A DNA stretch of 64,000 nucleotides from an uncultured Prochlorococcus sp. (lineage in GTDB: Bacteria; Cyanobacteriota; Cyanobacteriia; PCC-6307; Cyanobiaceae). Made by a program: the position numbers and the translations under genes. The notes under the pieces were generated by a model that worked only from the letters and a program-made list of their open reading frames with translations, ran no database searches and was not told the DNA's origin. Location: positions 81,566 through 145,565 of the forward strand of contig CACOCT010000002.1 in assembly GCA_902625845.1 (NCBI GenBank). Direction: 5' to 3'. Below, piece by piece: positions 5,933 to 22,293 of the stretch (position 1 is the stretch's first letter; each line of letters begins with the position of its first letter).

Positions 5933-5950
5933 TAAGAATCCGAGATTGAA

Positions 5951-5994
5951 CTCCCCGGGCCGTTGTGCACTTAACAAAATATGTCGTGGTATGA
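5951..5994 (-). repeat. tRNA-Asn 3'-end remnant (att relic)
   Basis: CTCCCCGGGC matches the last ten bases of the tRNA-Asn gene in the same orientation. The remainder of the tRNA is gone. From the first base, ATG occurs at offset 31 and GTATGA at offset 39, exactly as in the 16603 and 19017 remnants. It is read as the distal attachment junction of an integrated element. Confidence 0.65.
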
Positions 5995-6056
5995 AATGAT
6001 TTTTCATGACATAAATGAAATAAATAAGAAAATGGTCTAATATTTTGACGAATAAA

Positions 6057-6365
6057 TTAGTTTTGTATTTTTTCTAAATTCCATTTATCAAATATTAATT
6101 TCATTTCTCTTTCGTAGTTTCTTACTTTCTTTGAGAAAGGTAATGCTTGAAAAATTATCCCAAAGGGAAACTTAAAAAAAGAAGAAACATAAACAATATA
6201 AAATTCGATAAAGGAAGGTTTTTCTGGAAGAGGTAAATTTTTTACATATGCCCAATCTATGCAAGGTTTTAGTTGCTTATCACTAGCGATAATATTTTTT
6301 TTGCATCTCCACCAAGAGAATAGATAAATGCAAATAAAAATAGGTAAAGGAAGAAGTCGCAACAT
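6057..6365 (-). CDS. Hypothetical membrane-anchored protein
   Basis: The 102-residue protein begins with a hydrophobic, Trp-containing segment (LPLPIFICIYLFSWW) and has a second hydrophobic stretch in the middle (FYIVYVSSFFKFPFGIIF). It ends in a charged helix. The family is not recognised. It follows a broken gene on the same strand by about 20 bp and may once have shared its transcript. Confidence 0.4.
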   Translation of the reverse strand: MLRLLPLPIFICIYLFSWWRCKKNIIASDKQLKPCIDWAYVKNLPLPEKPSFIEFYIVYVSSFFKFPFGIIFQALPFSKKVRNYEREMKLIFDKWNLEKIQN

Positions 6366-6385
6366 TAGAAATCTTTTACTTTATT

Positions 6386-6577
6386 TTATTCATCATCTTC
6401 AGGATGATGAGGATCCGAATGTGGAGGAATTGTAGCATTATATTCTTCCGATTTTGCTTCTCCTGTCATCATTTTTGTAATCCATCCTCTATGCCAAACT
6501 TCAAGTTCATCCCTTTGCCAAGGTTATAGATCTGGATACATTTCTTCTAATTCTTCAGGAGTCTTTAGTGGTTGCAT
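6386..6577 (-). pseudogene. Conserved small protein gene with nonsense codon
   Basis: The frame reads MQPLKTPEELEEMYPDL, a TAA stop, then PWQRDELEVWHRGWITKMM and an acidic/His tail. Everything after the stop is protein-like (high Trp, helical, no further stop until the natural end), so one base change, probably CAA to TAA, broke a 63-residue gene. Function unknown. Confidence 0.5.
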
Positions 6578-6651
6578 ATTTTTTAGATTTAATTTTGGCA
6601 GAGATTCCTCAAAAATTAAAGTTTCTATTTTATCCTCATTAGGTTTTTAAT

Positions 6652-6846
6652 TTATTTTCTCTTACCATTCCATTTCCACCCATTCAAATTTTTCAACAAA
6701 TTTATTTCTTCTTTAGAAAGTAAATTTTTATTATATTTTGTTCTCTGAATGCCAACCCATTGACCTAAAGCAGATGACTTAGTAGGAGGGCATGCATGTC
6801 CATTTTCTAAAAAGTAATTTTTTAATTCTTAAATCTTTTTTGCCAT
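6652..6846 (-). pseudogene. Helicase-associated (HA) domain relic
   Basis: The frame reads MAKKI, a TAA stop, then ELKNYFLENGHACPP, LGQWVGIQRTKYNKNLLSKEEINLL and GWKWNGK. This is the layout of the helicase-associated domain: an E-NGH-P start, then LGxWVxxQRxxYxxxxLxxE, ending with FxW. HA domains occur in large accessory helicases of marine cyanobacterial mobile elements. Only one unit survives, interrupted near its start. Together with the fragment at 6867-6950 it suggests a helicase gene that lost its centre. Confidence 0.55.
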
Positions 6847-6866
6847 TTAGATTTACCATCCTATTT

Positions 6867-6950
6867 TCAACCTTCAAATTTTTCAAAATGCTTTCCTCTG
6901 ACCCCGACATAAGGATCTAATGAAGCATAAAATTCATCAAGGGTTGCCAA
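6867..6950 (-). pseudogene. Possible N-terminal helicase fragment
   Basis: The 27-codon frame ends YVGVRGKHFEKFEG. The RGKxFExF pattern resembles the N-terminal restriction-endonuclease-like segment of large DEAD/DEAH helicases that end in HA domains. It lies directly upstream of the HA relic on the same strand, the order expected after an internal deletion. The match is short, so this is tentative. Confidence 0.3.
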
Positions 6951-7065
6951 GATTATTCTTTGATCAAATTAATATAATCATAAAGCTCTTTTACTCAGGT
7001 ATTAATACCCTATGAATTTCAAATTAAAAGGAGGATAATATAAGAGTAGAGATCTAGGAGGTCTT

Positions 7066-7224
7066 ATGAAACTCAAAACTCCGTTCACTGCCCTTAGAAA
7101 TGCAACTTCAGATATGTGGAGAATGCATGATTTTAATTACAAATTACCTAAAGAAGCAAAGCAAGATTATTGGGATAAAGAATGTATAGATCATCCAAGT
7201 AGTTCTCACTGCAAAGTTTATTGA
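7066..7224 (+). CDS. MKLTxPF-family small protein, intact copy
   Basis: This 52-residue gene is the best-preserved member: MKLKTPFTALRNATSDMWRM, HDFNYKLPKEAKQDYWDKE, CIDHPSSSHCKVY. It is too short for the ORF track. The start is supported by AGGAGG seven bases upstream and by a GGAGGATAATATAAGAGTAG promoter/leader that recurs before the 8784 copy. It has two Cys near the C-terminus, no membrane span and mixed charge. Its stop overlaps the end of the convergent membrane-protein frame. Function unknown; the multiplicity points to a mobile or selfish peptide cassette. Confidence 0.6.
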   Translation: MKLKTPFTALRNATSDMWRMHDFNYKLPKEAKQDYWDKECIDHPSSSHCKVY

Positions 7225-7718
7225 TTTAACCTTTTATTTTTACTCTCATAAAATGGGAAAAAAGAACCAATAAATAAAACAAAGATTCCAATTAGATATA
7301 GAAAGGGTTCTATAAATGATGGAATCACATCTCTATATTTCAAAAGGATATCTACAAAGAGATCTTAGGAACTTGCACCCCATAATAGAAATCCTAGAAA
7401 ATATCCAAATACAGTTGATATATCAGAATTGAGATTGTAATTACTCAATAAAAAATGAAATTTAAATGCTCCTTTCCTCTGACAATATTGTTGAGATAAG
7501 AGTGCTATGAATAAGCCAACATTCCATAGTTGACCATATCCACTTTGCCTACCTAAATCACCTATTAAATGAAATACTCCAAAGATAAAAGTTAACCAAG
7601 GTAGATAAGGTAAAAGACTTTTATAAAAGTTGATTTTCAAAATTATTAGCTTTCTACTAATTTTAAAGATCCTGTCAATATCAAAATTTGTAATAACAGA
7701 TACCATCTTTATAAACAA
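7218..7718 (-). pseudogene. Membrane protein gene split by one stop
   Basis: The ORF track gives 117 residues ending in LLWGASS, but the same frame continues past the TAA for 49 codons as protein-like sequence with another membrane span (FLYLIGIFVLFIGSFFPFY). The full reading frame would be about 167 residues with four or more hydrophobic segments. The upstream small gene overlaps its ATG by ten bases, suggesting translational coupling. The family is not recognised. Whether the truncated form functions is unknown. Confidence 0.45.
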
Positions 7719-7822
7719 TAGTAGTTATTACTTGAGTATGCAGAACCCGTTCCAATTCTGTTAGGTCTCGTGGTCTTCCCTACTCTTTCATCTATTAATC
7801 TCCTATTAAAAAAAGACACCAT
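7709..7822 (-). CDS. Small basic peptide, coupled to next gene
   Basis: The 37-residue frame MVSFFNRRLIDERVGKTTRP followed by NRIGTGSAYSSNNYYCL is too short for the ORF track. It is strongly basic in its first half and Ser/Asn/Tyr-rich in its second. Its stop overlaps the start of the membrane-protein frame, a typical coupled arrangement. The even codon pattern and overlap suggest a real gene, but no family is recognised. Confidence 0.4.
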   Translation of the reverse strand: MVSFFNRRLIDERVGKTTRPNRIGTGSAYSSNNYYCL

Positions 7823-7939
7823 TTTTCGGAGCATAGATGAAGAACAAAAGACCTAATATTACTGCCTTGATATCTCATATTTAATTCAATGATTTGAATA
7901 TAATTTTTGCTTTGTGTTCTACAAATATTAAAGACATTA

Positions 7940-7965
7940 AAAAAGACTCCTTTCGGAGTCTTTTT
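7940..7965. terminator. Bidirectional intrinsic terminator
   Basis: AAAAAGACTCC-TTTC-GGAGTCTTTTT is a perfect 11-bp stem with a tetraloop, and is T-rich on either strand. No protein gene ends nearby on the plus strand. A TATAAT-like box about 55 bp upstream could define a short RNA ending here. Confidence 0.7.
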
Positions 7966-8445
7966 TATTAGTGACGACAGAAGGAGATCTATTTGATAAT
8001 CAGATTAAGAATGTTTTTAAAAATTTGTTTTTTTAGTAAAAGTGATAAATCACTTCTTCAGATTTTACTAAAGACTTTATTTTTAAAGTAATTCAAAATT
8101 AATCTCGGAAGTTTAATTTCTGATTACTTAACTTTCTTTCCTGAAAGGTTAGAGAAGTTAATTTACCTTGGTATTGCAGACCATGGATTAGTGAAGATCT
8201 AGTTGGTCAACCTTGGTCGAGTTGATCACCAGAACTGTCGTGTTATTAAGTTAGTCGTTTTAAAAAGTTTTGCATTGTTCCTTTACATTACGTAAGAATT
8301 AAGAAATTTATTTACTTGTCTACCTATTTTCATTGCCCTTTCAATCATAAAAAGATTAATTAGTTATTAATAATGCAATTATTTGATACTTTAACGATTA
8401 GATTATTTACATCAGAAAACTCCTCACACACTAATTTCTGATTAT

Positions 8446-8482
8446 TAAACGCCCCGATTCATAAGAATTAGGGTGTTTTTTA
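8446..8482 (+). terminator. Intrinsic terminator
   Basis: AACGCCC pairs with GGGTGTT and GATTC with GAATT around an ATAA loop, followed by six T. No protein gene lies upstream within 600 bp, so it probably ends an unannotated RNA. Confidence 0.55.
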
Positions 8483-8572
8483 ATAACTTTCGAGGAATTG
8501 GCACATATGATAGTTAAGTTACATACCTCTAACATATGCCACGCATCGAGAATAAATGGCATAAGCTAATCA

Positions 8573-8669
8573 TGTGTGTAGGAGAGGTTTTACTGAAAGA
8601 GTGGAAACAAGGATACACTTGACTCAGTAATTCCAGAAAAAGACCTCTAGAAATAGGGGTCTTTTTTTA
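8573..8669 (+). ncRNA. Yfr2-family-like small RNA, copy 2
   Basis: The core GTGTGTAGGAGAGGTTTTACT, AGTGGAAACAAGGATACAC is nearly identical to the 1451-1542 copy. The terminator stem AGACCTCTAGAAATAGGGGTCTTTTTTT is different in sequence but equivalent in position. Compensated divergence in the terminator with conservation of the single-stranded GGAAACA core is what a functional regulatory RNA would show. A MKLTxPF peptide relic follows 115 bp downstream. Confidence 0.72.
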
Positions 8670-8783
8670 TGAAAGCATTATTATGAAATGTTCAAAGCGA
8701 TACTTTATGATTCCTAAAATCCAACTATAAATTTGATAGTAATAGGAGGATAATAAGGGAGTAGAACAACAATAAGAAGTCTT

Positions 8784-8948
8784 ATGACACTCGCTAATAC
8801 GTTCACAATCCTTCCCAGATTCCTGAATGCTTTCAACTATGTAGATACTTAAGTTTAAACGCCTAAGAAAGAAATCAAGCAAACCTATAGGGGAAAGGAA
8901 TGCTTAGAACATCCAACCAATAATCACTGTTTAATCTATTGCGATTGA
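8784..8948 (+). pseudogene. MKLTxPF small-peptide gene, frameshifted
   Basis: The start frame gives MTLANTFTILPRFLNAFNYV then a stop. A shifted frame downstream gives KKEIKQTYRGKECLEHPTNN then HCLIYCD, which matches the family C-terminus. The promoter/leader (AATAGGAGGATAATAAGGGAGTAG) matches that of the 7066 copy. Coding capacity is lost through an indel. Confidence 0.6.
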
Positions 8949-8979
8949 GGGTAAAAACTTTAATTAATAGATATTAATT

Positions 8980-9035
8980 AAATGACCAAATAAATAACAA
9001 AATGACCAATAAATTGATCAATGCCAGATTGGTCA
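8980..9035. repeat. ATGACCAA direct and inverted repeats
   Basis: AAATGACCAA occurs at 8980 and 9000 (20-bp step), and its inverse ATTGGTCA at 9028. The set sits about 150 bp left of the 9181 tRNA remnant, matching the position of end repeats in the other intervals. Confidence 0.45.
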
Positions 9036-9117
9036 AGATGTCTTATTATGCCTTTAATTATCCTTTCTCTGAACGGCTAAATAGACAAATTAAAACGTGA
9101 CAACTGCCTGTAGGACA

Positions 9118-9147
9118 GAAAAAATGCCCATACGTATAGGCATTTAA
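9118..9147 (-). terminator. Terminator-type hairpin beside tRNA remnant
   Basis: AAATGCC/GGCATTT form a perfect stem, and the preceding A-run is a T-tract on the minus strand. It lies 35 bp left of CTCCCCGGG, like the hairpins at the other junctions. Confidence 0.55.
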
Positions 9148-9180
9148 TAAACATCTTCAGTTTAACTGTTACATAAAAAA

Positions 9181-9189
9181 CTCCCCGGG
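9181..9189 (-). repeat. tRNA-Asn 3'-end remnant (short)
   Basis: CTCCCCGGG is preceded by AA as in the functional gene (AACTCCCCGGG). Only nine tRNA bases remain, so on its own it would be weak. The hairpin on its left, the end repeats beyond that, and its orientation support it. The ATG/GTATGA block of the other remnants is missing; an island repeat begins there instead. Confidence 0.5.
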
Positions 9190-9195
9190 AAGTTA

Positions 9196-9280
9196 CTTTG
9201 ACTCCTGTATCCTTCGTACTCCTATCATATAGAGAAATATAGTGCTGAGAACCACAAAGCATTATTACTTGAGCAAAAAC
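9196..9280 (+). repeat. Island repeat, copy C
   Basis: This is the closest relative of the 4311-4392 copy. It begins within ten bases of the tRNA remnant and is not followed by a MKLTxPF gene. That position suggests the repeat belongs to an element end rather than to the peptide gene. Confidence 0.6.
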
Positions 9281-9326
9281 CATCAACCCTAGTAATAATA
9301 TTCATTTTGCACCTCTTAGAAACGTT

Positions 9327-9752
9327 TCAAGGATTAAAGTCTCTACATTTTGATCTTTCGTTTACATAATCTTTTATAGCATTATCCCATTCTGATAAAT
9401 CTGCTTCTTTTCCAGAAATATATAATTCCATTTGTTTCGAATAGTTTGCTGATTCAATCCGACTATTGAATGAAGCATTGCAAAAAATTATACTTCCAAA
9501 TTTTGAATAGTCCGCATAATCCCTATTCGCAGCAAATTCAGCATTTACCCTTTTCTTATCTAATGCTTTATACTCTAAATCCTCAATACTAGGTTTTGGA
9601 CGGAGTAAGAATGCTTTATATTCCAAACCCTCAATACTAGGTTTTGAAGGTAGTAAGGATGGATTTTTTTGTGAATTTAGATAAGCAATCAGGCAAACAC
9701 AAATAAGAACAGCAGCAAATACTCTAATTAACCAAGTGTTAGTTTTATCCAT
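9327..9752 (-). CDS. Membrane-anchored protein with duplicated segment
   Basis: One N-terminal membrane span (WLIRVFAAVLICVCLIAYL) is followed by two tandem copies of a 16-residue unit, LLPSKPSIEGLEYKAF and LLRPKPSIEDLEYKAL. The duplication is also plain at DNA level (48-bp units). The remaining 80 residues are soluble, charged and carry two Cys. The protein is probably anchored in the inner membrane with most of it outside. Family not recognised. It is the first gene of the nitrite interval, but nothing links it to nitrite use. Confidence 0.5.
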   Translation of the reverse strand: MDKTNTWLIRVFAAVLICVCLIAYLNSQKNPSLLPSKPSIEGLEYKAFLLRPKPSIEDLEYKALDKKRVNAEFAANRDYADYSKFGSIIFCNASFNSRIESANYSKQMELYISGKEADLSEWDNAIKDYVNERSKCRDFNP

Positions 9753-9964
9753 TATTCTCTTACTTATTCAATCCAACCATCAAAGGAAAATTTTTTTTAA
9801 TATTACTCGAAATATTTAATTCTGGTTGTTTTATATGTGTATTTTCAGGGTTTAGATTAAGGCAACATCCATAGCGAACATTTTTAAAAATTTTTAAAAA
9901 GAATGTTTTTAATTTTTAAACTTATTTGTTTGCTTTTTAGTTTGGAAATGAGTTTGATAATAAA

Positions 9965-10369
9965 ATGAATTTATTTGAAAGCATGAATAAATTTTTTCAT
10001 TTCAATGAACTTGTTGAATTAGGAAATATATTCAAGGACTGTGAAGCATATTTACTTGCGGTAGAGCATTTTGATAAGGCATTAGAATTTAGTTACTTGC
10101 CCATTAACAAACATCGCCTTCTAGAGGCATATGATTGCAGAGGTAACGCAAAAATATTCTTAAGTAACTATAGAGGAGCAATTATTGATTACACCAGTGC
10201 AATTAAAATAGACTCTACAGATAGTTATTTATTCTTTTGGAGAGGTTTTGCATATGAAGCACTTCAAAAATACCAAGAGGCAATTGAGGATTTTAAAATA
10301 TCATTAAAAATTGATCCTGAGTTTTGGTTGGCAAAAATAATGCTTGATTATATTAAGAAAAAAATTTAA
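9965..10369 (+). CDS. TPR-repeat protein
   Basis: At least three tetratricopeptide units are visible. The clearest are RLLEAYDCRGNAKIFLSNYRGAI and YLFFWRGFAYEALQKYQEAIEDFKISLKIDPE, with the usual W/Y, G, Y, A and P positions. The protein is 134 residues, soluble, without a signal peptide. TPR domains bind other proteins; the partner is unknown. A small membrane peptide gene follows after 40 bp on the same strand. Confidence 0.65.
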   Translation: MNLFESMNKFFHFNELVELGNIFKDCEAYLLAVEHFDKALEFSYLPINKHRLLEAYDCRGNAKIFLSNYRGAIIDYTSAIKIDSTDSYLFFWRGFAYEALQKYQEAIEDFKISLKIDPEFWLAKIMLDYIKKKI

Positions 10370-10409
10370 ATTAACTTCATGATTTTAAAAAATTAGGAAA
10401 GGTAATAAA

Positions 10410-10556
10410 ATGGGGTTTACAAAATTTATATTTTTAGCCTTTATCTTTCTTGTTTTTATCCTACCTATATTCAGTGGCCTACTCAACGAATTTCTTAAAG
10501 AAGATAAGGAGCAATCATCTCTACAAGAACGAACAAATTTAGTCCATAGATCCTAG
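10410..10556 (+). CDS. Small single-span membrane peptide
   Basis: This 48-residue frame is absent from the ORF track. MGFTKFIFLAFIFLVFILP is one membrane helix, followed by a charged, Gln-rich tail. AGGAAAGG lies at a good ribosome-binding distance from the ATG, which supports translation. It may be co-transcribed with the TPR gene. No family recognised. Confidence 0.45.
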   Translation: MGFTKFIFLAFIFLVFILPIFSGLLNEFLKEDKEQSSLQERTNLVHRS

Positions 10557-10633
10557 ATCAAAGGATTTATAATTGAAATGATTCTCAAAAATTGCAACCT
10601 GATCTAAAATTAAAATAATTAATTATTATCGAT

Positions 10634-11002
10634 TTGATTGTTTTACCTTTTAAGAAATTATTAGTTTCTTTACCTTTAACTTTTTTTATAAATAACGCAG
10701 TTTTTGCTTCAGAATATAAATGTGATTTGACAACTTTTGATGGTAGAGATTCTGAATTAAAAATTATTCCAAAAAATTATAAATATAAAGTAATTAGTGG
10801 TGATGTCAATTTAGGAGAATTTAGAGTTATAGATAACACTATTAATTTTTTACATATTTTTAATTCTTTGGAAGAAGAAAAGTTATCTATGCATATTGGC
10901 ATAAATAAACAAACAAACAAATTAATGTTTAATTTAATGGATTTCAAATTCACAGACAGACCAGCAAATCAAGTTAAGGGTTTTTGTCAAAAATCATACT
11001 AA
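10634..11002 (+). CDS. Small secreted protein
   Basis: A signal peptide (FKKLLVSLPLTFFINNAVFA) precedes about 95 mature residues with two Cys, one near each end, possibly disulfide-bonded. The only upstream start is TTG, four codons before a Lys-Lys pair, and I accept it because no ATG precedes the signal sequence. The middle is rich in beta-prone residues. Family not recognised; it is probably periplasmic. Confidence 0.5.
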   Translation: MIVLPFKKLLVSLPLTFFINNAVFASEYKCDLTTFDGRDSELKIIPKNYKYKVISGDVNLGEFRVIDNTINFLHIFNSLEEEKLSMHIGINKQTNKLMFNLMDFKFTDRPANQVKGFCQKSY

Positions 11003-11060
11003 ATAAAAGTATTGTTTTATATTATGTATTGATAATTTTTATCATCAACATAAATAAATT

Positions 11061-11867
11061 TTATTTAGTGACAAGTTCATGAATTTTTATATCTTCAAAT
11101 TTAAAATTACTTGGTTTTGGAGCACATTTTAAAACTTGATGATTAACAACCTTACCAATTACTACTATTGATGGAGACTTTATTCTATCTCTTGCAATTT
11201 CTTGAGGTAAACTTTCTAGGGTTGTTTTATAACATTTTTGTTGAGATAAAGTGCCTTGATAAATAATCGCTACTGGTGTTTCTTTTTGAAGTCCTCCCAA
11301 TATTAATTCCTCTGAAATAGATCTTAAGTTCTTTATTCCCATATAAATCACAATTCCATCTGAAGTTTTTGCTAAGTTTCTCCACTTCGTTCTGTTTTTC
11401 TCATCAGCAGCATTTTCGTGACCTGTTATGAACGTTATTGATGAACCAACTTTTCTATGAGAAATAGGAATCCCAAAATATGCAGGAGCTGCTATTCCTG
11501 ATGTAACTCCAGGGACAACCTCTATATTTATATTATTTAAGTTTAAATATTCAGCCTCTTCTCCACCTCTGCCAAACATAAATGGATCGCCTCCTTTAAG
11601 CCTAACTATGCATTTATAGTCTCTTGAAAGTTCAACCAAAAGTTTATTTATTTGTTTTTGAGAGAGGATTTTTTGAGATCTTCTTTTTCCCACAAAAAAA
11701 TGTCTGCATTTAATTGTGGTCAAAGATAATAATTCTTTAGGAATTAGAGAATCATAAACAATTGCATCACAATTACAAATTAATTTATAAGCTTTCAATG
11801 TTAGTAATTCAGGATCACCAGGGCCTGCACCAACTAAATAGACTTTAGAATCATGTAATTTATTCAT
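11061..11867 (-). CDS. cobA: Uroporphyrinogen-III C-methyltransferase
   Basis: This SAM-dependent enzyme converts uroporphyrinogen III to precorrin-2, the first committed step to siroheme. The N-terminal VYLVGAGPGDPELLTLKA and the later RLKGGDPFMFGRGGEE and VPGVTSGIAAPAYFGIP are the family's signatures. At 268 residues it is a complete stand-alone SUMT, without CysG fusion. It overlaps the end of the upstream cbiX-like gene by one base (TAATG), so the two are an operon. Siroheme is the cofactor of the divergently encoded nitrite reductase, which explains its presence in this cassette. A core sulfite-reductase pathway would need the same enzyme, so another copy may exist elsewhere. Confidence 0.92.
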   Translation of the reverse strand: MNKLHDSKVYLVGAGPGDPELLTLKAYKLICNCDAIVYDSLIPKELLSLTTIKCRHFFVGKRRSQKILSQKQINKLLVELSRDYKCIVRLKGGDPFMFGRGGEEAEYLNLNNINIEVVPGVTSGIAAPAYFGIPISHRKVGSSITFITGHENAADEKNRTKWRNLAKTSDGIVIYMGIKNLRSISEELILGGLQKETPVAIIYQGTLSQQKCYKTTLESLPQEIARDRIKSPSIVVIGKVVNHQVLKCAPKPSNFKFEDIKIHELVTK

Positions 11868-12739
11868 TAGAGATTTGCTAATTCGTTTATTAGAGTTTTA
11901 TTAAATTGATCAAATTCAATTAGAGAAGTTTTTGAATCTGATCGTAAAATTTTTCTTGTATTAGGGTTAGGTAATAAACAATATGGAATTGGATTAAATT
12001 GATTTATTAAAGTAATATCCTCATATTTATCCCATGATAATAAAGGTGTTTTTAATTTTTTTTGAAGATTATTTAAATAATCAAAACCTATAGAATCAGT
12101 TAGAGGATGATGCAAAATCAAAGAAGGTTTAATATTAATTTCACTGTCAAGAATATTTTGAACAGCCCTAATTATGGGTTGCCATGATCCTATATATGGA
12201 AATAGTTTGACTTTTATACCTTGATCCCTAAGGCGCTTACAAATCCCAGGAATATCGTATCTTATATGTTTGCCAGGCAAAAGGAATAAAGGTACCAAAT
12301 AAACAGACTTAGAATTCGTTTTTTGAGAATTATTATTTGTTAAAATTTCTAACTCAATCTTTGAATTCCTTAGTTTCTTCAATTCTTTTAATAGTTTTAT
12401 AATTTTAGGATTCACAGTGCCATTCTTGGACCCATGAATAATTAATCTTAAATCTATACTTTTTGATACATAATTGCATTTTGGTATAAATTGAGACCTA
12501 AATAAATTACCTTTTATTTTATTAATCTTTAACAAATTAACTATTTTAAGGAAGGTATGAACAGATCCAGAAAAAACTTTTCTAAAAGAAAAACTACAAG
12601 ACCAAATTATTATTTTAGGAGTAAAATTAATACATCTAATAATATACTTGAGAGAGATATTAGAGCAATGATTAAAGTAATAAAAATGCTTAAAGATGGT
12701 ATAATAACTAGCTTGGGAGAGATAGGTCGTCAATATCAT
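11867..12739 (-). CDS. CbiX/SirB-like chelatase, probable siroheme step
   Basis: From about residue 97 the protein shows the class II chelatase pattern: LRLIIHGSKNG with the metal-binding His, then SVYLVPLFLLPGKHIRYDIPGI with a second His. The domain fits sirohydrochlorin chelatases that insert Fe (or Co), which with cobA would give siroheme for NirA. The first 95 residues (MILTTYLSQ...) are low-complexity and unlike the family, and no second in-frame ATG exists before the domain. A TTG near residue 69 is an alternative start, making the early part a leader. A 61-codon ORF on the opposite strand covers the same stretch and is probably a shadow. An NtcA box lies upstream. Confidence 0.68.
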   Translation of the reverse strand: MILTTYLSQASYYTIFKHFYYFNHCSNISLKYIIRCINFTPKIIIWSCSFSFRKVFSGSVHTFLKIVNLLKINKIKGNLFRSQFIPKCNYVSKSIDLRLIIHGSKNGTVNPKIIKLLKELKKLRNSKIELEILTNNNSQKTNSKSVYLVPLFLLPGKHIRYDIPGICKRLRDQGIKVKLFPYIGSWQPIIRAVQNILDSEINIKPSLILHHPLTDSIGFDYLNNLQKKLKTPLLSWDKYEDITLINQFNPIPYCLLPNPNTRKILRSDSKTSLIEFDQFNKTLINELANL

Positions 12740-12784
12740 TAAAGTAATTACTAAAATTTTTAATTTAAATATACAAAATATTAT

Positions 12785-12798
12785 GTATCAAGTAATAC
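12785..12798 (-). promoter_or_regulatory. NtcA box, cbiX-like side
   Basis: GTATCAAGTAATAC is a perfect GTA-N8-TAC. It lies 46 bp upstream of the annotated cbiX-like start, with AT-rich -10-like sequence about 20 bp downstream on the minus strand. NtcA is the nitrogen-control activator of cyanobacteria and uses this site at -41.5. Confidence 0.55.
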
Positions 12799-12831
12799 TA
12801 AATTAAATATCTAAAATATATTTGATATTTA

Positions 12832-12845
12832 GTATTTATAGATAC
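12832..12845 (+). promoter_or_regulatory. NtcA box of nirA
   Basis: GTATTTATAGATAC is a perfect GTA-N8-TAC about 80 bp upstream of the nirA start. A TATTAAT -10 candidate follows 21 bp after the box, the standard spacing for NtcA-activated promoters. This predicts activation of nirA when ammonium is scarce. Confidence 0.7.
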
Positions 12846-12923
12846 AAATTGTATTCATCATTTAAGTATTAATAGATATCGATAATCTTTAAAAATTAAT
12901 CAAATTAATTCTTTATTTAGACC

Positions 12924-14498: not shown

Positions 14499-14550
14499 TT
14501 AAATTTTTTAACTTGATAAAAATTACTTAAACTAAAAAATTTTTTTAATT

Positions 14551-14694: not shown

Positions 14695-14706
14695 TTGATT
14701 TTCACC

Positions 14707-15618: not shown

Positions 15619-15619
15619 T

Positions 15620-16366
15620 TTGAATTCTTTGTTAAAAAATAGGGTAATTAAACCTATCTCTGAAACAGAAATTAAAGAGAGATTTAATAAAAAACTTATT
15701 CCTAAAGATCCTCAATGGCTTAAGTATGCCTACTCTAAAAATTTATCAAATGAATTCAAATTCTTAATATGCGAGAGACTTGGCTTCTTAGGGGCTGATG
15801 GTTGGATAATTCTTAGAGAACTAATAGAGGATTATGGATATGAAGATGAAATTATTTATGGGATAGGACTTTGTCATCAAATTGAGGCCAAGGATTATTT
15901 GATTGATTTACTGAATTCAAGTAAAAACTTTAATTTGCCAATTCTTAAAGCATTAAATTGCTGGGGAGCCTTTATACCTAACTATCAATTAAAACTGATA
16001 ATTAAAAATAAATCTGCTGATATAAGATTGGCAGGATTAGATCTTGTAAACTTTAAATCATATTTATTAGATGATCACGAATTAATAGAAATATTGAATA
16101 TTGTTTTAAGTGATTTTCGAGAAGAGATTATTATTAAATGTATAAGCATTCTTCAAAAAAGAAATTCAGATAAAATAATTGACCTAATCAGCAATCTAGT
16201 AATATCTCAATCAAAGAAATCTTCCTTCGCTGCTATTAGAGCATTAGGCTCTATTGGGACAAAAAGGAGTTCTTATCAATTAAAAAAACTTTTAAATAAA
16301 ATCAATGATAAAGAATTATTAGAATTTATAAAAAAGCAAATATCTTTTCAAGAAATATTCAATTAA
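15620..16366 (+). CDS. HEAT-repeat-like protein of nitrite cluster
   Basis: The protein is mainly helical with repeating hydrophobic pairs, for example QSKKSSFAAIRALGSIGTKR and earlier ILKALNCWGAF, which look like HEAT/PBS-lyase-type repeats. Such proteins act as scaffolds or chaperones for cofactor assembly. Its TTG start lies two bases after the focA stop, so translation is likely coupled. The position suggests a helper for nitrite reductase or its transporter, but that is inference. No membrane span is visible. Confidence 0.55.
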   Translation: MNSLLKNRVIKPISETEIKERFNKKLIPKDPQWLKYAYSKNLSNEFKFLICERLGFLGADGWIILRELIEDYGYEDEIIYGIGLCHQIEAKDYLIDLLNSSKNFNLPILKALNCWGAFIPNYQLKLIIKNKSADIRLAGLDLVNFKSYLLDDHELIEILNIVLSDFREEIIIKCISILQKRNSDKIIDLISNLVISQSKKSSFAAIRALGSIGTKRSSYQLKKLLNKINDKELLEFIKKQISFQEIFN

Positions 16367-16434
16367 ATAAATACATAAAAGGAGATAAATTTTCCTAAGT
16401 TTAGATCGGATGTCAACTCGCAATATTCAAAAAT

Positions 16435-16480
16435 AAAAACACATAATTACAAAGAGCTAAAAACACATAAAAAACACATT
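16435..16480. repeat. Triple AAAAACACAT repeat
   Basis: AAAAACACAT starts at 16435, 16459 and 16470, giving steps of 24 and 11 bp. The set is about 125 bp left of the 16603 tRNA remnant, at the right end of the nitrite interval. I found no clear matching copies at the left end near 9.2 kb. Confidence 0.5.
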
Positions 16481-16551
16481 TTCGCCTAAAACCCTGACCT
16501 ATTATGCTTACGTGTAAACGATGGAATTTACAAAAAACTCAGTTATAAGCA

Positions 16552-16582
16552 CAAAAAAAACTCATATAATCGCATATGAGTT
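16552..16582 (-). terminator. Terminator-type hairpin beside tRNA remnant
   Basis: AACTCATAT/ATATGAGTT is a perfect 9-bp stem preceded by an A8 run, which forms the T-tract on the minus strand. It lies 21 bp from the tRNA remnant. Confidence 0.6.
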
Positions 16583-16602
16583 CTTGTGAATTTGACTAAA
16601 GA

Positions 16603-16646
16603 CTCCCCGGGCGGAATCATAAAAAGTCCCAAATGCACTCGTATGA
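16603..16646 (-). repeat. tRNA-Asn 3'-end remnant (att relic)
   Basis: CTCCCCGGGCGG matches the last twelve bases of tRNA-Asn. AAGTCCCAAATG and GTATGA follow at the offsets seen in the 19017 remnant (AAGTCTCTAATG, GTATGA); 17 of 23 positions agree over that block. It marks the junction between the nitrite interval and the secreted-protein interval. Confidence 0.72.
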
Positions 16647-16684
16647 AAGGGTTGGGAAGGTTATTGAATGAGATATAAGATGAT

Positions 16685-16706
16685 ACCCCTAACAAACCCC
16701 TAACAA
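16685..16706. repeat. Tandem ACCCCTAACAA repeat
   Basis: Two perfect ACCCCTAACAA units lie head to tail (11-bp step), about 80 bp right of the tRNA remnant. The same core (ACAAACCCCTAACA) recurs at the opposite end of this interval near 18880 and, with one change, at 5750. Confidence 0.6.
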
Positions 16707-16829
16707 AATTATTAAACCAATTAAATTGATCTTTAAATATTGAGCAAATATTTTTACTTTAAATATCCCCCTCAATCAATATTCTGAAAATAAAAATTAA
16801 TATTAATCTTGGATTTATATATATATTTT

Positions 16830-17360
16830 CTAAAAATCAAGATGTCTTTTATTAAATAAAACTCCAGGGAATTCACATCCATTACTTAAAGTCCAGAATC
16901 CTGAACCTGCTCTTACTAATCTAGGATTATTCCTATATCCAAAATAATAAAGAGTTGAATCCATACCAACAAAAATTACTCTTCTTCTATAAGTAGTATT
17001 AATCTCATCTTTTTTTGGGAAAAAACCTCTAGCAGTTTCATTACCAAAGAAAGTTAATATTTGTTTTGATTGAGGATTAAAATTCTTATCTTCTCGTTTA
17101 AATTTCCACCATTTTGATCCATATCCCTGAGACTCTATCATTTCAATTTTACTTATAAAATTTCCATCAAAAAATAATTCTGCCTGTTTTGGCATACCTC
17201 TTGGAGTAATATATTTTATTTTAATTATCGCTTCATCTATTAAATCGCTCTGCCAGATGCAACCATCATTGTTTGACTTTTTTTCAGATTTTACTTGACT
17301 CATAAAACAAATAAGTAAGCATATTATTAATTTTGGGATTAAATATTTATTCATAATCAT
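16830..17360 (-). CDS. Secreted protein, partner of upstream paralog
   Basis: A signal peptide (YLIPKLIICLLICFMSQVKS) precedes about 150 mature residues rich in aromatic and basic residues, with Cys near each end (GCIWQSDL, NGCEFPG). The start overlaps the end of the upstream gene by 14 bases, so translation is probably coupled. It has no visible similarity to the protein in the matching position of the second pair (17791-18384). Family unknown; probably periplasmic. Confidence 0.55.
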   Translation of the reverse strand: MIMNKYLIPKLIICLLICFMSQVKSEKKSNNDGCIWQSDLIDEAIIKIKYITPRGMPKQAELFFDGNFISKIEMIESQGYGSKWWKFKREDKNFNPQSKQILTFFGNETARGFFPKKDEINTTYRRRVIFVGMDSTLYYFGYRNNPRLVRAGSGFWTLSNGCEFPGVLFNKRHLDF

Positions 17361-17751
17361 TAATTTTATCTATGAATTTACATTTATAATTCCCAATTTT
17401 TAAACCATAATAATTTTTTCTTACATAAAGCGGTAAGTAATCGAAATAAGGAGATCTAATATATGTAATTACATTTCTAGTAGTATTCCAACTTTGAGCA
17501 GTATTCCCTCTATCAATTAACGCATCAAATTCAAGTAATTCATTTCCTGTAGGAACTTTAATATATTCCAATTCGCTTCCCCAGTCTCTTGGGTCTTTCC
17601 TTAGTTTTGCTTCAGTAATAGAAATATTTCCTAATTTAGGACAATGGTAATTATATGTGGGTAATTTAATTTCATGAGATTTAACTTTTTCTTGCAGAGA
17701 TAAAATAATACCAAGAAAAATTATGCTTATTAACTTTATTTGATATGTCAC
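17347..17751 (-). CDS. Secreted protein, tandem paralog 1
   Basis: Signal peptide IKLISIIFLGIILSLQEKVKS, then a mature domain starting HEIKLPTYNYHCPKLG with KLRKDPRDWGSELEYI and ending in YKCKFI. It is nearly identical over the first 60 residues to the 18377-18802 protein, with divergence in the C-terminal half, so the two arose by local duplication. Two conserved Cys (YHCPKL, YKCKF) could pair. It overlaps a different downstream gene in each case. Confidence 0.6.
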   Translation of the reverse strand: MTYQIKLISIIFLGIILSLQEKVKSHEIKLPTYNYHCPKLGNISITEAKLRKDPRDWGSELEYIKVPTGNELLEFDALIDRGNTAQSWNTTRNVITYIRSPYFDYLPLYVRKNYYGLKIGNYKCKFIDKINDYE

Positions 17752-17790
17752 AAAGCAGAGAGAGTACTTAATTGAATAACAATAGATATT

Positions 17791-18384
17791 TTATTTTTCC
17801 ATTCGTCTGTAAATACTTGTTTTTGGAAACATATCTTTAATTCTCTTATCATATTCGCATCTTGAATCACAATTTAATATTACTTCCTCTTTCTCTTTTA
17901 ACCTAAAAAGTTCTTGAGAAATTATCCCATCTATTTGAATAAGTCTCCTTCTTTTCAAATAAAAAGAACATCTTCCTTTCATCGGAGATCCTATATATTT
18001 TATTTGATTCTTGCATTCTCTGGATACCCATTTATTAAATAAGTCCTGACTTTCATTCAGATCATTTTCAAGACTAGACATTCTTGAATAGTAAATATTT
18101 GAACTAAATTTCTCAAGATTCTCCATTGAAACAGAATTAATTTTTTCTTCAATAATTTGATCAATCATTTTTTCTGCAATCATACCGCATGCAATTAATA
18201 GAGAAGTATTGCGAGGCAGTCTTTTTTTTAGACTAAGTTCATTATTCCTAGAAATACAATCATTTTGAAATTGATAAAGTGATTTACTATTTTCAGGTTC
18301 AGAAAAATAACTTAAATGAGCAATTATTTTTGAATTAGAGGAGAATACTAAAATTACTCCAATATAAAAAAATAATTTATTCAT
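17791..18384 (-). CDS. Secreted protein, partner of second paralog
   Basis: The N-terminus (KLFFYIGVILVFSSNSKIIA) is a signal peptide. The mature part is mostly helical and basic with several Cys (NDCISRN, ACGMIAEK, RECKNQ, GRCSFY, NCDSRCEYD), suggesting disulfides in the periplasm. Its start overlaps the upstream paralog by eight bases. No family is recognised. Confidence 0.55.
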   Translation of the reverse strand: MNKLFFYIGVILVFSSNSKIIAHLSYFSEPENSKSLYQFQNDCISRNNELSLKKRLPRNTSLLIACGMIAEKMIDQIIEEKINSVSMENLEKFSSNIYYSRMSSLENDLNESQDLFNKWVSRECKNQIKYIGSPMKGRCSFYLKRRRLIQIDGIISQELFRLKEKEEVILNCDSRCEYDKRIKDMFPKTSIYRRMEK

Positions 18385-18802
18385 GATAATTTATTGTTTC
18401 TATAAATTTGCAAGCATAAATCCCAGATTTCAAACCATCATAATTTCTATGCACTTCAATCAAAAATTCATAATTTTTTTGATATGGATTAGATGGATTA
18501 GGAGATCGATAATATGTAATTATGCGCCAAGCAGTTATCCAAGACTGTGAAGCAATTCCTCTTTTTATCAAGGCATCAAATTCAAGATTGCGATTCCCTC
18601 TCGTAATCCTAATATATTCCAATTCGCTTCCCCAGTCTCTTGGGTCTTTCCTTAGTTTTGTTTCAGTAATGGAAACACTTCCCAATTTAGGACAATGGTA
18701 ATTATGTGTAGGCAATTTAATTTCATGAGATCTAACTTTTTCTTGTAAAGAAAAAATAATTCCAAGTAAAATTATGCTTATTAACTTTATTTGATATGTC
18801 AT
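18377..18802 (-). CDS. Secreted protein, tandem paralog 2
   Basis: This is the close paralog of 17347-17751: same signal peptide, the HEIKLPTHNYHCPKLG start, and the KLRKDPRDWGSELEYI block. The middle differs (a short PNPSNPYQKN insertion), and it ends YACKFIETI. It is the first gene of this interval's minus-strand run. The high DNA-level similarity of the 5' halves implies a recent duplication or gene conversion. Confidence 0.6.
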   Translation of the reverse strand: MTYQIKLISIILLGIIFSLQEKVRSHEIKLPTHNYHCPKLGSVSITETKLRKDPRDWGSELEYIRITRGNRNLEFDALIKRGIASQSWITAWRIITYYRSPNPSNPYQKNYEFLIEVHRNYDGLKSGIYACKFIETINYHE

Positions 18803-18880
18803 AAGGCAGAAATCGTACTTAATAGAATAAATTTCTTAGATATATCAATAGTTTTAAGAAAATTTTCAAAACCATAAACA

Positions 18881-18929
18881 AACCCCTAACATTTTTTTAA
18901 AAGTAGTGCATACTAGTGAAATGTTAGGG
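18881..18929. repeat. CCCTAACATTT inverted repeat
   Basis: CCCTAACATTT (18884-18894) and AAATGTTAGGG (18919-18929) are perfect 11-bp inverted arms around a 24-bp spacer. The left arm belongs to the ACCCCTAACA family found at the other end of the interval. The arrangement suits a dimeric DNA-binding protein or recombinase arm sites. Confidence 0.6.
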
Positions 18930-18965
18930 AAGTCTCTTATTCTCTTAAAACTCTGATATAACCAT

Positions 18966-18991
18966 AAAAAAAGAGACTTGAGAAAGTCTCT
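18966..18991 (-). terminator. Terminator-type hairpin beside tRNA remnant
   Basis: AGAGACTT-GAGA-AAGTCTCT is a perfect 8-bp stem with an A7 run on its left. The AGAGAC/GTCTCT arms are identical to those of the hairpin serving the intact tRNA. Confidence 0.65.
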
Positions 18992-19016
18992 GGAAGTGTT
19001 TGAAACTGTTATGAAA

Positions 19017-19060
19017 CTCCCCGGGCGATTTTCGAACAAGTCTCTAATGACTTGGTATGA
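19017..19060 (-). repeat. tRNA-Asn 3'-end remnant (att relic)
   Basis: CTCCCCGGGCGATTTTCGAAC matches the last 21 bases of tRNA-Asn at 18 positions, reaching the T-loop TTCGAA. It is the best-preserved remnant and the nearest to the functional gene. ATG and GTATGA follow at offsets 31 and 39. Confidence 0.8.
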
Positions 19061-19096
19061 CTACTCTTGAACCCTTATTTATCAATATTTCCTGAA

Positions 19097-19118
19097 TTAC
19101 ACTAACTTTACACTAACT
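19097..19118. repeat. TTACACTAACT repeats, left pair
   Basis: Two perfect 11-mers lie head to tail, 80 bp right of the tRNA remnant and just past the stop of the J-domain gene. They are copies one and two of seven. Confidence 0.7.
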
Positions 19119-19124
19119 ATTTTT

Positions 19125-19970
19125 TTATTTTTTATTTGTTTTTTGTTTTTGTCTTGAATATTCAAGTTTTCTACATGCAAGACAATTACCTTTTAAATCT
19201 CTTAAACTATCGTGCCCATATTTACATTTTCTGCCTTTATAGAATTTTATATTTCTCCTCCTTGCTTCTGCAGGAGAAAGAGGCACTAATCTATTTTTTA
19301 TTCGATATTCCTCCTCTTTAGACTTAAGAATATCTTTCTGTTTCCTTTCATATGCTCTCTTTTCCTTATCTCTTCTTTTTTTCTGTTGTTGATTTGTCTT
19401 TCTAGTTTCTCTTTTAACTCTTCTATACCAAGATGGTTCCCATATTACTTTTTTACCAGAATTATCATAATAATATCCAAGTTTTTTCCTAAGAAATCTT
19501 GAAGGACAACTTTTATATTTTTCGTAATCAATTGAATATTCGGGAAGATGAGTCAACGGATAACCCATGCATCCACAAATACAAATTTCTCGAAAAGTAC
19601 CCCTATTAATATTTGAATCCGTATAGTTTGCTTCTTGACTAGATCTATTATTACTCCTGCTTTGATTACTCCGATATGCTTCTTGATTAGATCTATTCTT
19701 ATTCCACATTTCATGCCACCATGAACTAGACCAATTCTGTTTTTGATTCGTCCCAGTTGCATCATTTGTTGTTGCATAACTGTTATCAAAGTTTGTTTTC
19801 TTTTTTTCATCACTTAAAATCGCCCATGCATTATTGATTAATTTCGTTTTCTCTTCATCTCCTCCAAGATCAGGATGATATCTTTTTATTTGTTGACGAT
19901 ATGCTTTTTTAATTTCTTCGAAGGAAGCATTCCTATTTACACCAAGAATTTTGTAGGGATTATTTGTCAT
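19125..19970 (-). CDS. J-domain protein with C-terminal zinc-finger-like motif
   Basis: Residues 1-65 form a DnaJ domain ([20 protein letters not shown], the HPD motif in [22 protein letters not shown]), which would stimulate an Hsp70. A Ser/Asn/Gln-rich linker with repeated RSNQEA units follows. Then come a Cys-rich patch (ICICGCMGY) and a very basic segment ending in [22 protein letters not shown]. That C-H...C-C arrangement is like small zinc fingers of phage HNH-type and DNA-associated proteins. It is not DnaJ proper (no GF region or CxxCxGxG repeats). Mobile-element cargo; it may recruit Hsp70 to a nucleoprotein complex. Confidence 0.65.
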
Positions 19971-20010
19971 CTCTTTATCTAAAAAATCATGTCATTTAAT
20001 ACTTCTGAAA

Positions 20011-20042
20011 TTACACTAACTATTCTTAAACTTACACTAACT
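20011..20042. repeat. TTACACTAACT repeats, middle pair
   Basis: Two perfect copies start 21 bp apart, just upstream of the J-domain gene and at the 3' end of the next gene. They are copies three and four of seven. Confidence 0.65.
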
Positions 20043-20049
20043 ATTTCCA

Positions 20050-20988
20050 TTAGAATTCTGCTCCATTAATCATTTCAATATTCACTTCTTCAATTTGATT
20101 ATTCTCTAACCTGAAATATTCAGTCTGTGGGATTCTATTCTCCTTAAATTTCTTATGTAAGTCTTTTTCTAAAGTTTCATAGTTAGAGCATCTAACAACA
20201 TTTAGAATCTCATCTGGTTTAAGTTGATTAAATCTTCTTAAAAGATTATCTGTAATACCTATTTTGAAAATATCTTTGTTCCGAATAAAATAAACAAAAC
20301 CTTTCGCTCCAAAATCTTTTACCTCGATAATTTTCTCCTTTGGTTCTTCGCCATTAAGAGTTTTTGTTCTTTCTGAATAAAACCTTAATAGTAATTTTGC
20401 TGCTTTATTAATATCCTCTCTGTTGTAGAAAAATGCTTTTAAATATGATTCCCATCTTTGTTTAATTTCTGGTGTCGAATAATCTCCACCTGTGTATTGA
20501 ATATTTGTCTCATAGAATTTCATAATATCCAAAGGATTTTCATCAATTCCAAAAGCATTCCATAAATAACCAACTATTGGTTTGTTCATTTCGTATTGAA
20601 CTTTGATATATTTCTCATAATTTTCTTTGTTACCAACTGTCCCTGAGTTTCTCCATGAATCAAAACTTTCAAAAATTGGAAAGCAATCATTAAATTCATA
20701 TTCAAAAACTTCATCATCATCCTCATCATCTTCATCTGCCTCAAACTCCAAAACTCCACTAACAATCCCTCTTAAATCACTTGGTTCCATGCCTTTAAAG
20801 ATTTGCTTTACACTATCCAAACAAATTCTTAAATCTAATTTTTCCTCATCAGACATCCATATTTTTTTAGAAGCATTTAACTTTTCCTCTAATTCAATTT
20901 TCATTTCATTAAGAGGTTCAGTAATCTCATGAAAAAAATCAAGAATTTCATCTTCATTCTTTTCCCAAATATTTTTATAAGTATCCAT
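20050..20988 (-). CDS. T5orf172/Mug113-type GIY-YIG-like protein
   Basis: Residues 1-220 are a mostly helical, acidic domain of unknown kind, including a long Asp/Glu run (EADEDDEDDDEVFEYE). The C-terminal 80 residues start GFVYFIRNKDIFKIGITDN and continue LRRFNQLKP, YETLEKDLHKKF, RIPQTEYFRL. That is the T5orf172/Mug113 layout, a GIY-YIG-related nuclease fold found in phages and selfish elements. Tyr in VYFI, Lys-Ile-Gly-IT, Arg in LRRF and Glu in TEYF match the expected catalytic positions. It may be a homing-type or defence nuclease. The 101-residue plus-strand ORF is a shadow of the acidic run. Confidence 0.65.
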   Translation of the reverse strand: MDTYKNIWEKNEDEILDFFHEITEPLNEMKIELEEKLNASKKIWMSDEEKLDLRICLDSVKQIFKGMEPSDLRGIVSGVLEFEADEDDEDDDEVFEYEFNDCFPIFESFDSWRNSGTVGNKENYEKYIKVQYEMNKPIVGYLWNAFGIDENPLDIMKFYETNIQYTGGDYSTPEIKQRWESYLKAFFYNREDINKAAKLLLRFYSERTKTLNGEEPKEKIIEVKDFGAKGFVYFIRNKDIFKIGITDNLLRRFNQLKPDEILNVVRCSNYETLEKDLHKKFKENRIPQTEYFRLENNQIEEVNIEMINGAEF

Positions 20989-21038
20989 TTTTTATGAGCG
21001 ATGATACTATCTTAATCATTACTTGAGTTTCAGAGTAA

Positions 21039-21965
21039 ATGAAAGAATATTACAGGGTAATGCTTGGAAGAAAAAGTATATTTGCGAAGGAATGTAGAGA
21101 GAAAGGGTTTATTTTTGGCAATTTTGATATTGATCAAGATCTAACAGAATCATTAACTGAGGACTTGAGAGATTTTAATAAAGAATTTATTCCGATATAT
21201 CTTCAAAAAAATCCTGAAAAGAGTAAATTTTCTGCTGGTTCAAGTTGTGGATTTCTCTGGACTATTTCTAAAAAAATAAAGAAGGGAGATATTGTATTCT
21301 CACCAGATGGTGAAGGAAATTACTTTGTAGGTGAAGTAACTGGTGATTATCAATATATTCCTGATTCGGATAAACCTCATAGAAGAGAAGTTAAATGGGG
21401 ATTAGAAAAAATTGATAGAGCAGATATGAGTCAAGAATTAAAGTATTCAACAGGTTCTATTGGAACAGTCTGTCAGATAAGCAAATATAAAAAAGAATTA
21501 GAAAAATTAATAAAGGGAGAAGTTTTCAGTCCAGTCATTACAACAACCGATGAGACTATCGAAGACCCAACCGTTTTTGCTCTTGAAAAACATTTAGAGG
21601 ATTTTTTAATCCATAATTGGAATCAAACACCTCTAGGTAAGAAATATGATATCTACAAAGATGAAGAAAATTCTGGGCAACAATTTCCAACTGATACTGG
21701 ACCAATTGATATTCTTGCTATTAGTAAAGATAAGAAAGAAGTATTAGTTGTTGAATTAAAAAAAGGTAGAGCAAGTGATGCTGTTGTTGGACAAATTCAG
21801 AGATATATGGGATATGTCACCGAATGTATTGCTGAAGATACTCAACAAGTAAAAGGGATCATAATTGCTCTTGATGACGATAAAAGGATTAAGTTTGCTC
21901 TTAAGGTTGCTCCAAATATTGATTTCTATCGGTACGAAGTTAAGTTTAATTTGATCAAAGAATGA
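21039..21965 (+). CDS. NucS-like (PD-D/ExK) nuclease with PUA/EVE-like N-domain
   Basis: The N-terminal 140 residues include KIKKGDIVFSPDGEGNYFVG and EVTGDYQYIPD, the pattern of PUA/EVE-like or Mrr-type N-domains that read modified bases. The C-terminal 120 residues contain TGPIDILAISKDKKEVLVVE, then LKKGRASDAVVGQIQRYMGYV, the DUF91/NucS-type PD-(D/E)xK core with D and ExK in place and the QIxRYMGY helix. The combination of a base-sensing domain plus nuclease is typical of modification-dependent restriction. It is divergent from the T5orf172 gene across 50 bp. Likely element-borne defence; the target is unknown. Confidence 0.7.
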   Translation: MKEYYRVMLGRKSIFAKECREKGFIFGNFDIDQDLTESLTEDLRDFNKEFIPIYLQKNPEKSKFSAGSSCGFLWTISKKIKKGDIVFSPDGEGNYFVGEVTGDYQYIPDSDKPHRREVKWGLEKIDRADMSQELKYSTGSIGTVCQISKYKKELEKLIKGEVFSPVITTTDETIEDPTVFALEKHLEDFLIHNWNQTPLGKKYDIYKDEENSGQQFPTDTGPIDILAISKDKKEVLVVELKKGRASDAVVGQIQRYMGYVTECIAEDTQQVKGIIIALDDDKRIKFALKVAPNIDFYRYEVKFNLIKE

Positions 21966-21987
21966 GAGGAAATTAGGATTGATTGGA

Positions 21988-22031
21988 TTACACTAACTAA
22001 TTTTTAAAATTACACTAACTTTACACTAACT
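21988..22031. repeat. TTACACTAACT repeats, right triplet
   Basis: Three perfect copies start at 21988, 22010 and 22021 (steps of 22 and 11 bp), just past the nuclease gene and about 95 bp from the tRNA terminator. They are copies five to seven. Confidence 0.7.
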
Positions 22032-22123
22032 TTTTAAAAAAATTATTTATTTTATAACAAATCTAGTGGATATTATTGGAATGTACTGAATATCTATTTC
22101 TTCCCTAACTCCTTTTATAGAAA

Positions 22124-22149
22124 CAAAAAAAGAGACTTATGAGGTCTCT
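22124..22149 (-). terminator. Terminator of tRNA-Asn
   Basis: AGAGAC/GTCTCT with an A-run on the left forms a T-tract on the minus strand, 28 bp past the tRNA 3' end. It is the functional counterpart of the hairpins at the four remnants. Confidence 0.7.
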
Positions 22150-22176
22150 TGATTGTTCTTGGATTTTGTTAATGAA

Positions 22177-22248
22177 CTCCCCGGGCGGGATTCGAACCTG
22201 CGACCAATCGGTTAACAGCCGATCGCTCTACCGCTGAGCTACCGAGGA
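22177..22248 (-). tRNA. tRNA-Asn (GTT)
   Basis: The 72-nt minus-strand gene folds as a standard cloverleaf. The acceptor stem pairs TCCTCGG with CCGGGGA, the discriminator is G, the D arm contains AGCTCAGCGGTAGAGC, the anticodon stem-loop is ATCGG-CTGTTAA-CCGAT with anticodon GTT, and the T arm contains GGTTCGAATCC. CCA is not encoded. Its 3' end is the repeated target of integration in the island to its left. Confidence 0.97.
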
Positions 22249-22293
22249 ATATTAAGAATTTAGCCCTTACACCCACCAAATGACAAGGGGGGG

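Follow-up and report, generated by a model that had tools for sequence, protein, structure and literature searches.

Tycheposons, mobile elements of Prochlorococcus, reportedly insert at the 3' ends of tRNA genes by means of a tyrosine recombinase, carry nutrient genes as cargo and remodel genomic islands. Attachment sites of the lambda type (attP) combine a short core with arm-type sites on both sides, the gene for a directionality factor being located near that of the recombinase. A size of 4–200 kb is quoted for tycheposons in a report that also describes additive genomic islands recognisable by repeated 3' ends of a tRNA gene, for example the tRNA-Lys repeats of 'Ca. Methylopumilus' (PMC10872708). 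The DNA analysed here, a stretch of 64,000 nucleotides (hereafter the window), is AT-rich Prochlorococcus-like DNA from contig 2 of an assembly of 1,175,750 bases that is 66% complete, and contains an island to the left of the gene for tRNA-Asn(gtt) (22249–22176, minus strand; 3' end at 22176–22188). With a probability of roughly 0.93, this island was built by the repeated site-specific insertion of tycheposon-like elements at the 3' end of that gene, the integration target, so that at one tRNA locus the layers of gene gain can be read in the photosynthetic genus that is the most abundant of all.

In common with tycheposons, the window locus combines a tRNA 3'-end target, displaced tRNA ends, nutrient-gene cargo (nirA and focA) and island remodelling, and its elements inserted at the tRNA gene with regeneration and displacement of the 3' end. 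The divergent tyrosine recombinase of tycheposons is present in the elements of four relatives at the same tRNA gene, but a profile search detected none encoded by the window elements. In possible further contrast to tycheposons, the two youngest of these elements are only 2.4–3.2 kb long and the nutrient cargo is a nitrite-only cassette; the window blocks measure 2.4, 3.2, 3.2 and 7.4 kb, and the recombinase-bearing elements of relatives 7.1–14.6 kb. A preliminary description of this DNA had noted a fit with tycheposons, an assignment that agrees with the site and the relatives' elements but not with the lack of a recombinase: the window elements function as tycheposons do, yet would at most be members without a recombinase. 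As in the additive islands, the final ~20 bp of a tRNA gene recur in series along this island; unlike there, the window junctions could be matched both to empty sites and to the element ends of other genomes.

The motif CTCCCCGGG occurs in the window at 5951, 9181, 16603, 19017 and 22177, always on the plus strand, against an expectation of 0.05 per 64 kb, and none of 100 shuffles reached five copies. A search of the whole assembly returned five forward and no reverse matches, all inside one 16-kb part of the window, and none for the control. Site 22177 is the 3' end of the intact tRNA-Asn gene and the other four are displaced copies, each with a 13-bp core on the minus strand (19015–19027, the youngest; 16601–16613; 9179–9191; and 5949–5961, the oldest recognisable). 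Read on the tRNA strand, every site consists of CCCGGGGAG and TT (TC at 16603), followed by a hairpin and T-run. These terminators lie at ~16556–16585, ~9122–9145 and ~5907–5930 for the three leftmost copies, while the hairpin now serving tRNA-Asn (22130–22150, minus strand) was contributed by the youngest element. The single-fold z-scores of the minus-strand hairpins are modest (−1.1 to −2.2), but genus-wide the association is firmer, a terminator-like site being present within 90 bases of 33 of the 37 displaced ends and 46 of the 49 intact tRNA-Asn genes, compared with 4.2% of 9,800 positions drawn at random from these islands. The positions, single orientation and adjoining terminator-type hairpins given in the preliminary description were thus borne out, and sequence comparison returned the same matches to the tRNA (18 of 21 bases for the copy at 19017, an unbroken 12 for that at 16603, and 9–10 for the two leftmost). 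Its further suggestion, that similarity declining with distance records age, holds for the counts but not as a gradient of time: the stretch common to the tRNA and most elements is only ~13 bp, and the longer match at 19017 is that element's own end, present base-for-base in another genome (locus L096). Similarity to the tRNA was accordingly rejected as an age clock.

A conserved core block, which in many relatives lies no more than ~0.7 kb after tRNA-Asn, starts in the window genome at ~−5,700; the island therefore extends over ~28 kb, and the stacked copies occupy its right part. No degenerate copy of the core rose above background elsewhere in this 28-kb island, and a search of the window genome for the ancestral tRNA-Asn terminator, close to where the island meets the core, found none that was convincing.

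The five closest relatives found (genomes G136, G104, G101, G286 and G120) are 86–92% identical at the tRNA region. Two of them, G136 and G104, exhibit core-bounded absence of the interval 9190–22174 (12,985 bp, nitrite cluster included) from the tRNA-Asn locus: the tRNA side (window 22175–23247) continues directly into the 9181 remnant's far side (window 8353–9189 in G136, 87%; window 8711–9189 in G104, 79%), and the overlap at the joint is exactly CCCGGGGAGTT, the shared 11 bp. The breakpoint thus falls precisely at the remnant, as had been predicted for strains without the interval, and these empty sites, together with the confinement of the motif, support the proposal of successive integrations at one tRNA gene. 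The finer age order rests on position and on G136 and G104, and not on tRNA similarity. If G136 and G104 had instead lost the blocks, through precise excision or a deletion between tRNA ends, distance from the tRNA would not equate to age. Excision by the same recombination leaves an identical joint, and no state was polarised by an outgroup tree; excision would, however, still require prior insertion at the core and alter only the timing, and focA is otherwise confined in the genus to AG-363-P06 and reaches no more than 85% identity in the family's other genera, which argues for gain. We regard such loss as unlikely.

Insertion at the tRNA gene is further consistent with the distribution of the motif CGCCCGGGGAG, found at ~119 places in 101 Prochlorococcus genomes with at most one control match in any genome. 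Counting by hand against tRNA positions gave 37 non-tRNA copies, 29 of which are on a contig that also has an exact copy of the tRNA; all but one of these 29 lie downstream of tRNA-Asn on the tRNA strand, at distances of 188–14,637 bp. The sole exception (G021:C15:23182), inverted and on the other side of tRNA-Asn, is a near-duplicate of G021's own junction, and may have arisen as a chimera during amplification. The copies are short and all coupled to terminators, as would be expected if the copies were a dispersed repeat or terminator-associated motif and not fragments of a tRNA gene left by insertion. That explanation is nevertheless extremely improbable: the genome holds no further copies of the motif, its position and orientation are locked to tRNA-Asn throughout the genus, and the empty sites join exactly at a copy. 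As the preliminary description had supposed, the 12-mer is confined and not scattered over the core genome.

By the mechanism that we propose, each element would carry a terminator of its own and a copy of the final ~11–13 bp of the tRNA gene. Recombination at the core would then rebuild the tRNA from the 3' end and terminator that the element brings, while those present before would be pushed to the far side, the newest element always adjoining the tRNA. Comparisons between genomes demonstrated that arms and far sides are freely recombined, with the core as the switch point. Element ends are reused across genomes: the element-side arm at 19017 is 91% identical over 114 bp to contig 71 of G035, the match ending at the core, beyond which G035 enters a terminator type found after tRNA-Asn in near-empty genomes; the arm at 5951 is 88–90% identical over ~430–446 bp to displaced ends in G001, G004, G115 and G117, the far sides of which differ; and the arm at 16603 is similar to those of G071, G073 and G090. 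Terminators are likewise exchanged, the far side of 5951 being located directly after the intact tRNA-Asn in G035, G022 and G030, and that of 19017 in G071 and G090, while in G120 the far side of 9181 recurs at a displaced end whose element side is different. Over the 200 bp that follow tRNA-Asn, the window and G011 are 89.5% identical.

The 37 displaced ends share the core CGCCCGGGGAGTT, and their arms a distinctive architecture. The trinucleotide TCA is present at −15, −25, −35 and −45 in 12, 14, 30 and 21 arms, respectively, and in none at the immediately neighbouring positions; this periodic signal was reached by none of 500 rotated-arm controls, and persists in 21 arms differing by more than 25%. 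At ~−70 to −95 there follows a pair of 11-bp repeats, the sequence of which varies between element types (lag-11 identity 0.52, versus 0.23–0.33 at other lags). The same repeat recurs at the opposite end of the block with a score of at least 12 in 15 of 22 distinct blocks, as against 16 of 462 mismatched pairs, and none of 20,000 permutations reached the paired-end total. In the window, 19017–22177 and 16603–19017 have ends matching at 24 of 24 and 15 of 15 bases, respectively; matching end repeats sought for 9181–16603 and 5951–9181 were either not found or weak. The repeats TTACACTAACT, ACCCCTAACA and AAAAACACAT are each confined to their own block within the first 23 kb of the window.

This shared anatomy of TCA in 10-bp phase and element-specific 11-bp repeats at both ends appears to be described here for the first time, and gives an exact match between the two ends of each of the two youngest elements. 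The phased TCA and 11-bp repeats are putative binding sites of the recombinase or of an AlpA-type directionality factor. In having a short core, arm repeats on two sides and a gene resembling that for a directionality factor, the tRNA-Asn elements resemble a lambda-type attP at the sequence level, but the repeat sequence varies between elements within a fixed frame. The ends may embody a code, an idea to which we give rather less than even credence: within a frame of 13-bp core, TCA every 10 bp and paired 11-bp repeats, the middle bases of the repeat would set which recombinase acts, and the nitrite cassette and other recombinase-less elements, down to end-only blocks of ~200–260 bp, would be non-autonomous and mobilised in trans by recombinases that recognise the code they share. 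The anatomy offers a sequence test by which element ends can be paired even after loss of the recombinase, such that integrase-less cargo can be found in other genomes and mobilisation in trans can be tested.

The nitrite cassette (11027–16375), which comprises genes for a siroheme methylase and a CbiX-like protein, nirA (12924–14498), focA (14695–15618) and a gene for a HEAT-repeat protein taken as nirX (15620–16366), is shared with AG-363-P06, a distantly related HLVI single cell and the only high-light cell with focA in the study of Berube et al. 2019 (PMC6370341), which proposed non-homologous recombination for the cassette without naming a mechanism and in the text of which 'tRNA' does not occur. 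Of 266 genomes of the genus, focA was found in two, the window genome and G212, the coordinates of which agree with the AG-363-P06 record QCGD01000002.1. Both carriers have the same cassette gene set and order, including the siroheme, nirA, focA and HEAT-protein genes, and the same tRNA-Asn address, the cassette lying 211 bp from the intact tRNA-Asn in AG-363-P06 and 228 bp from a displaced end in the window, where, unlike in AG-363-P06, it sits in a stacked array followed by two later insertions. Three AAAAACACAT repeats (16435–16479, minus strand) lie at the left end of the nitrite element, and the same repeat type is found at both ends of the AG-363-P06 element, the far end of which has a degenerate core and an arm similar to the one in a G064 mini-element. 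Together these features point to a tRNA-Asn element as the transfer route; we infer that each lineage gained the cassette as such an element. The alternative, that homologous exchange between islands delivered the cassette to both genomes and that the tRNA address is merely shared flank, gains from the fact that homology to AG-363-P06 ends ~9 bp past the last cassette gene and that the left-end sequences differ. It is nevertheless somewhat unlikely, given that the flanking core genes are only 67–72% identical (cassette genes 95–97% at the DNA level), too diverged for easy exchange, and that in both carriers the block is still flanked by tRNA 3'-end cores and has AAAAACACAT-type end repeats. 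Transfer on a tRNA-Asn element thus supplies, with the window genome as second carrier, a concrete route for the high-light nitrite cassette transfer left open in 2019.

Relatives' elements suggest which enzyme might be responsible. A divergent tyrosine recombinase, matching a PHROG integrase, is encoded beside a displaced end in elements of G035 (14.6 kb), G021 (10.3 kb), G073 (7.1 kb) and G105 (8.0 kb); an AlpA-like gene lies between recombinase and end in the first three, G105 having the recombinase only, and AlpA-like genes are also present near displaced ends or in islands of further loci. The Pfam model PF00589 was rejected as an integrase detector, the element recombinase L044:13889-15199 giving no match at E ≤ 0.1, and statements on absence consequently rest on a profile built from the four elements' recombinases and two from contig 11. 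A tycheposon-type recombinase would have catalysed the window insertions, acting in cis before its loss or in trans. No relatives of the element recombinase were found in the viral contigs searched. An AlpA-like fossil at 4043–4300 (plus strand; in-frame stop; profile E 1.8e-16), missed in the preliminary description, has an orientation corresponding to that in relatives' elements and no core left alongside, and marks an older element whose core is gone. Stacking at the tRNA stands, but the remnants are not a full record of insertion, at least one older event lying further left.

Several observations weigh against repeated insertion as the origin of the island. The profile search found no tyrosine recombinase in the window island, so that the earlier statement that no integrase remains holds for the island, and none in the incomplete assembly exceeded the PF00589 cut-off, a model that misses element recombinases. 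The comparison with G136 and G104 cannot by itself separate insertion in the window lineage from excision in theirs. The displaced core in AG-363-P06 is degenerate and the left-end sequence beside its cassette differs from that in the window, and the blocks 9181–16603 and 5951–9181 are without convincing paired ends. Among the serially inserted blocks previously proposed, matched ends are limited to the two youngest, and the two older ones look composite or end-deleted.

The youngest element (19026–22176; 3,160 bp core to core) has the same 24-bp repeat pair at its two ends, and its right-end arm (19028–19118, minus strand) has TCA at −25, −35 and −45 and paired 11-bp repeats TTACACTAACT at 19097 and 19108, the left-end copies of this repeat type (21988–22031, minus strand) starting at 21988, 22010 and 22021. 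Its cargo encodes a DnaJ-domain protein, a T5orf172/GIY-YIG protein and, at 21039–21965, a protein with a match (E 9.3e-150) to PDC-S02, a family of candidate defence proteins. A third TTACACTAACT cluster, between two genes at 20011–20042, might be the trace of two related elements having fused within this one. The second element (16612–19016; 2,414 bp) encodes four small proteins without Pfam matches, and has the repeat ACCCCTAACA twice at its right end (16685 and 16696) and once at its left (18882).

The third block (9190–16602), which carries the nitrite cassette, is probably a composite, a nitrite element with a AAAAACACAT-type left end and a deleted right end fused to the remainder of another element, because the AAAAACACAT end is unpartnered at 9181, where the arm looks deleted, and G120 and G286 reveal what intervenes: in G120 an AlpA gene and arm are interposed between sequences adjacent in the window near 9181, and in G286 sequence matching the 9181 region runs on into AlpA and arm. 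The fourth block (5960–9180; 3,230 bp), with weakly paired ends, is probably also composite or end-deleted; it contains Yfr10 and Cyano-1 RNAs and an open reading frame (ORF; 6057–6365) with 94–95% identity in 1-kb elements of G001 and G004.

A number of minor observations were also recorded. Blocks of ~190–260 bp between two tRNA 3' ends (L050:1056-1313, L084:3911-4122, L083:1345-1543, and 188 bp in L090) have no cargo and consist of little beyond the two ends, left and right, of an element, internal deletion after insertion being possible. The nirA gene was not found in any of the five closest-relative assemblies, four of which are 59–77% complete. Contig 11 of the window genome encodes two more tyrosine recombinases near tRNA-Ser (L099:3551-4853 and 7187-8425), one of which has, immediately ahead of its start codon, a pair of 11-bp repeats (TCGCACCCAAA/CCGCACCCAAA) resembling tRNA-Asn element ends; no displaced tRNA-Ser ends were found on that contig. 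In G136, the ~119 kb that follow tRNA-Asn (contig 1, 1094936–1214935) do not include the core block by which the island is bounded in other genomes, and the locus is therefore rearranged in this single-contig genome. Yfr10 and two Cyano-1 small RNAs lie within the window island (8411–8639 and 1449–1514), in a stretch located directly after tRNA-Asn in G136. Finally, a small-ORF family (MKL..TPF..LRN.TSDMWR..) has five copies in the window, at 2680, 4450, 5410, 7070 and 8780, and, with an adjacent ~90-bp repeat, extends throughout the older island and into the tRNA-Asn islands of relatives.

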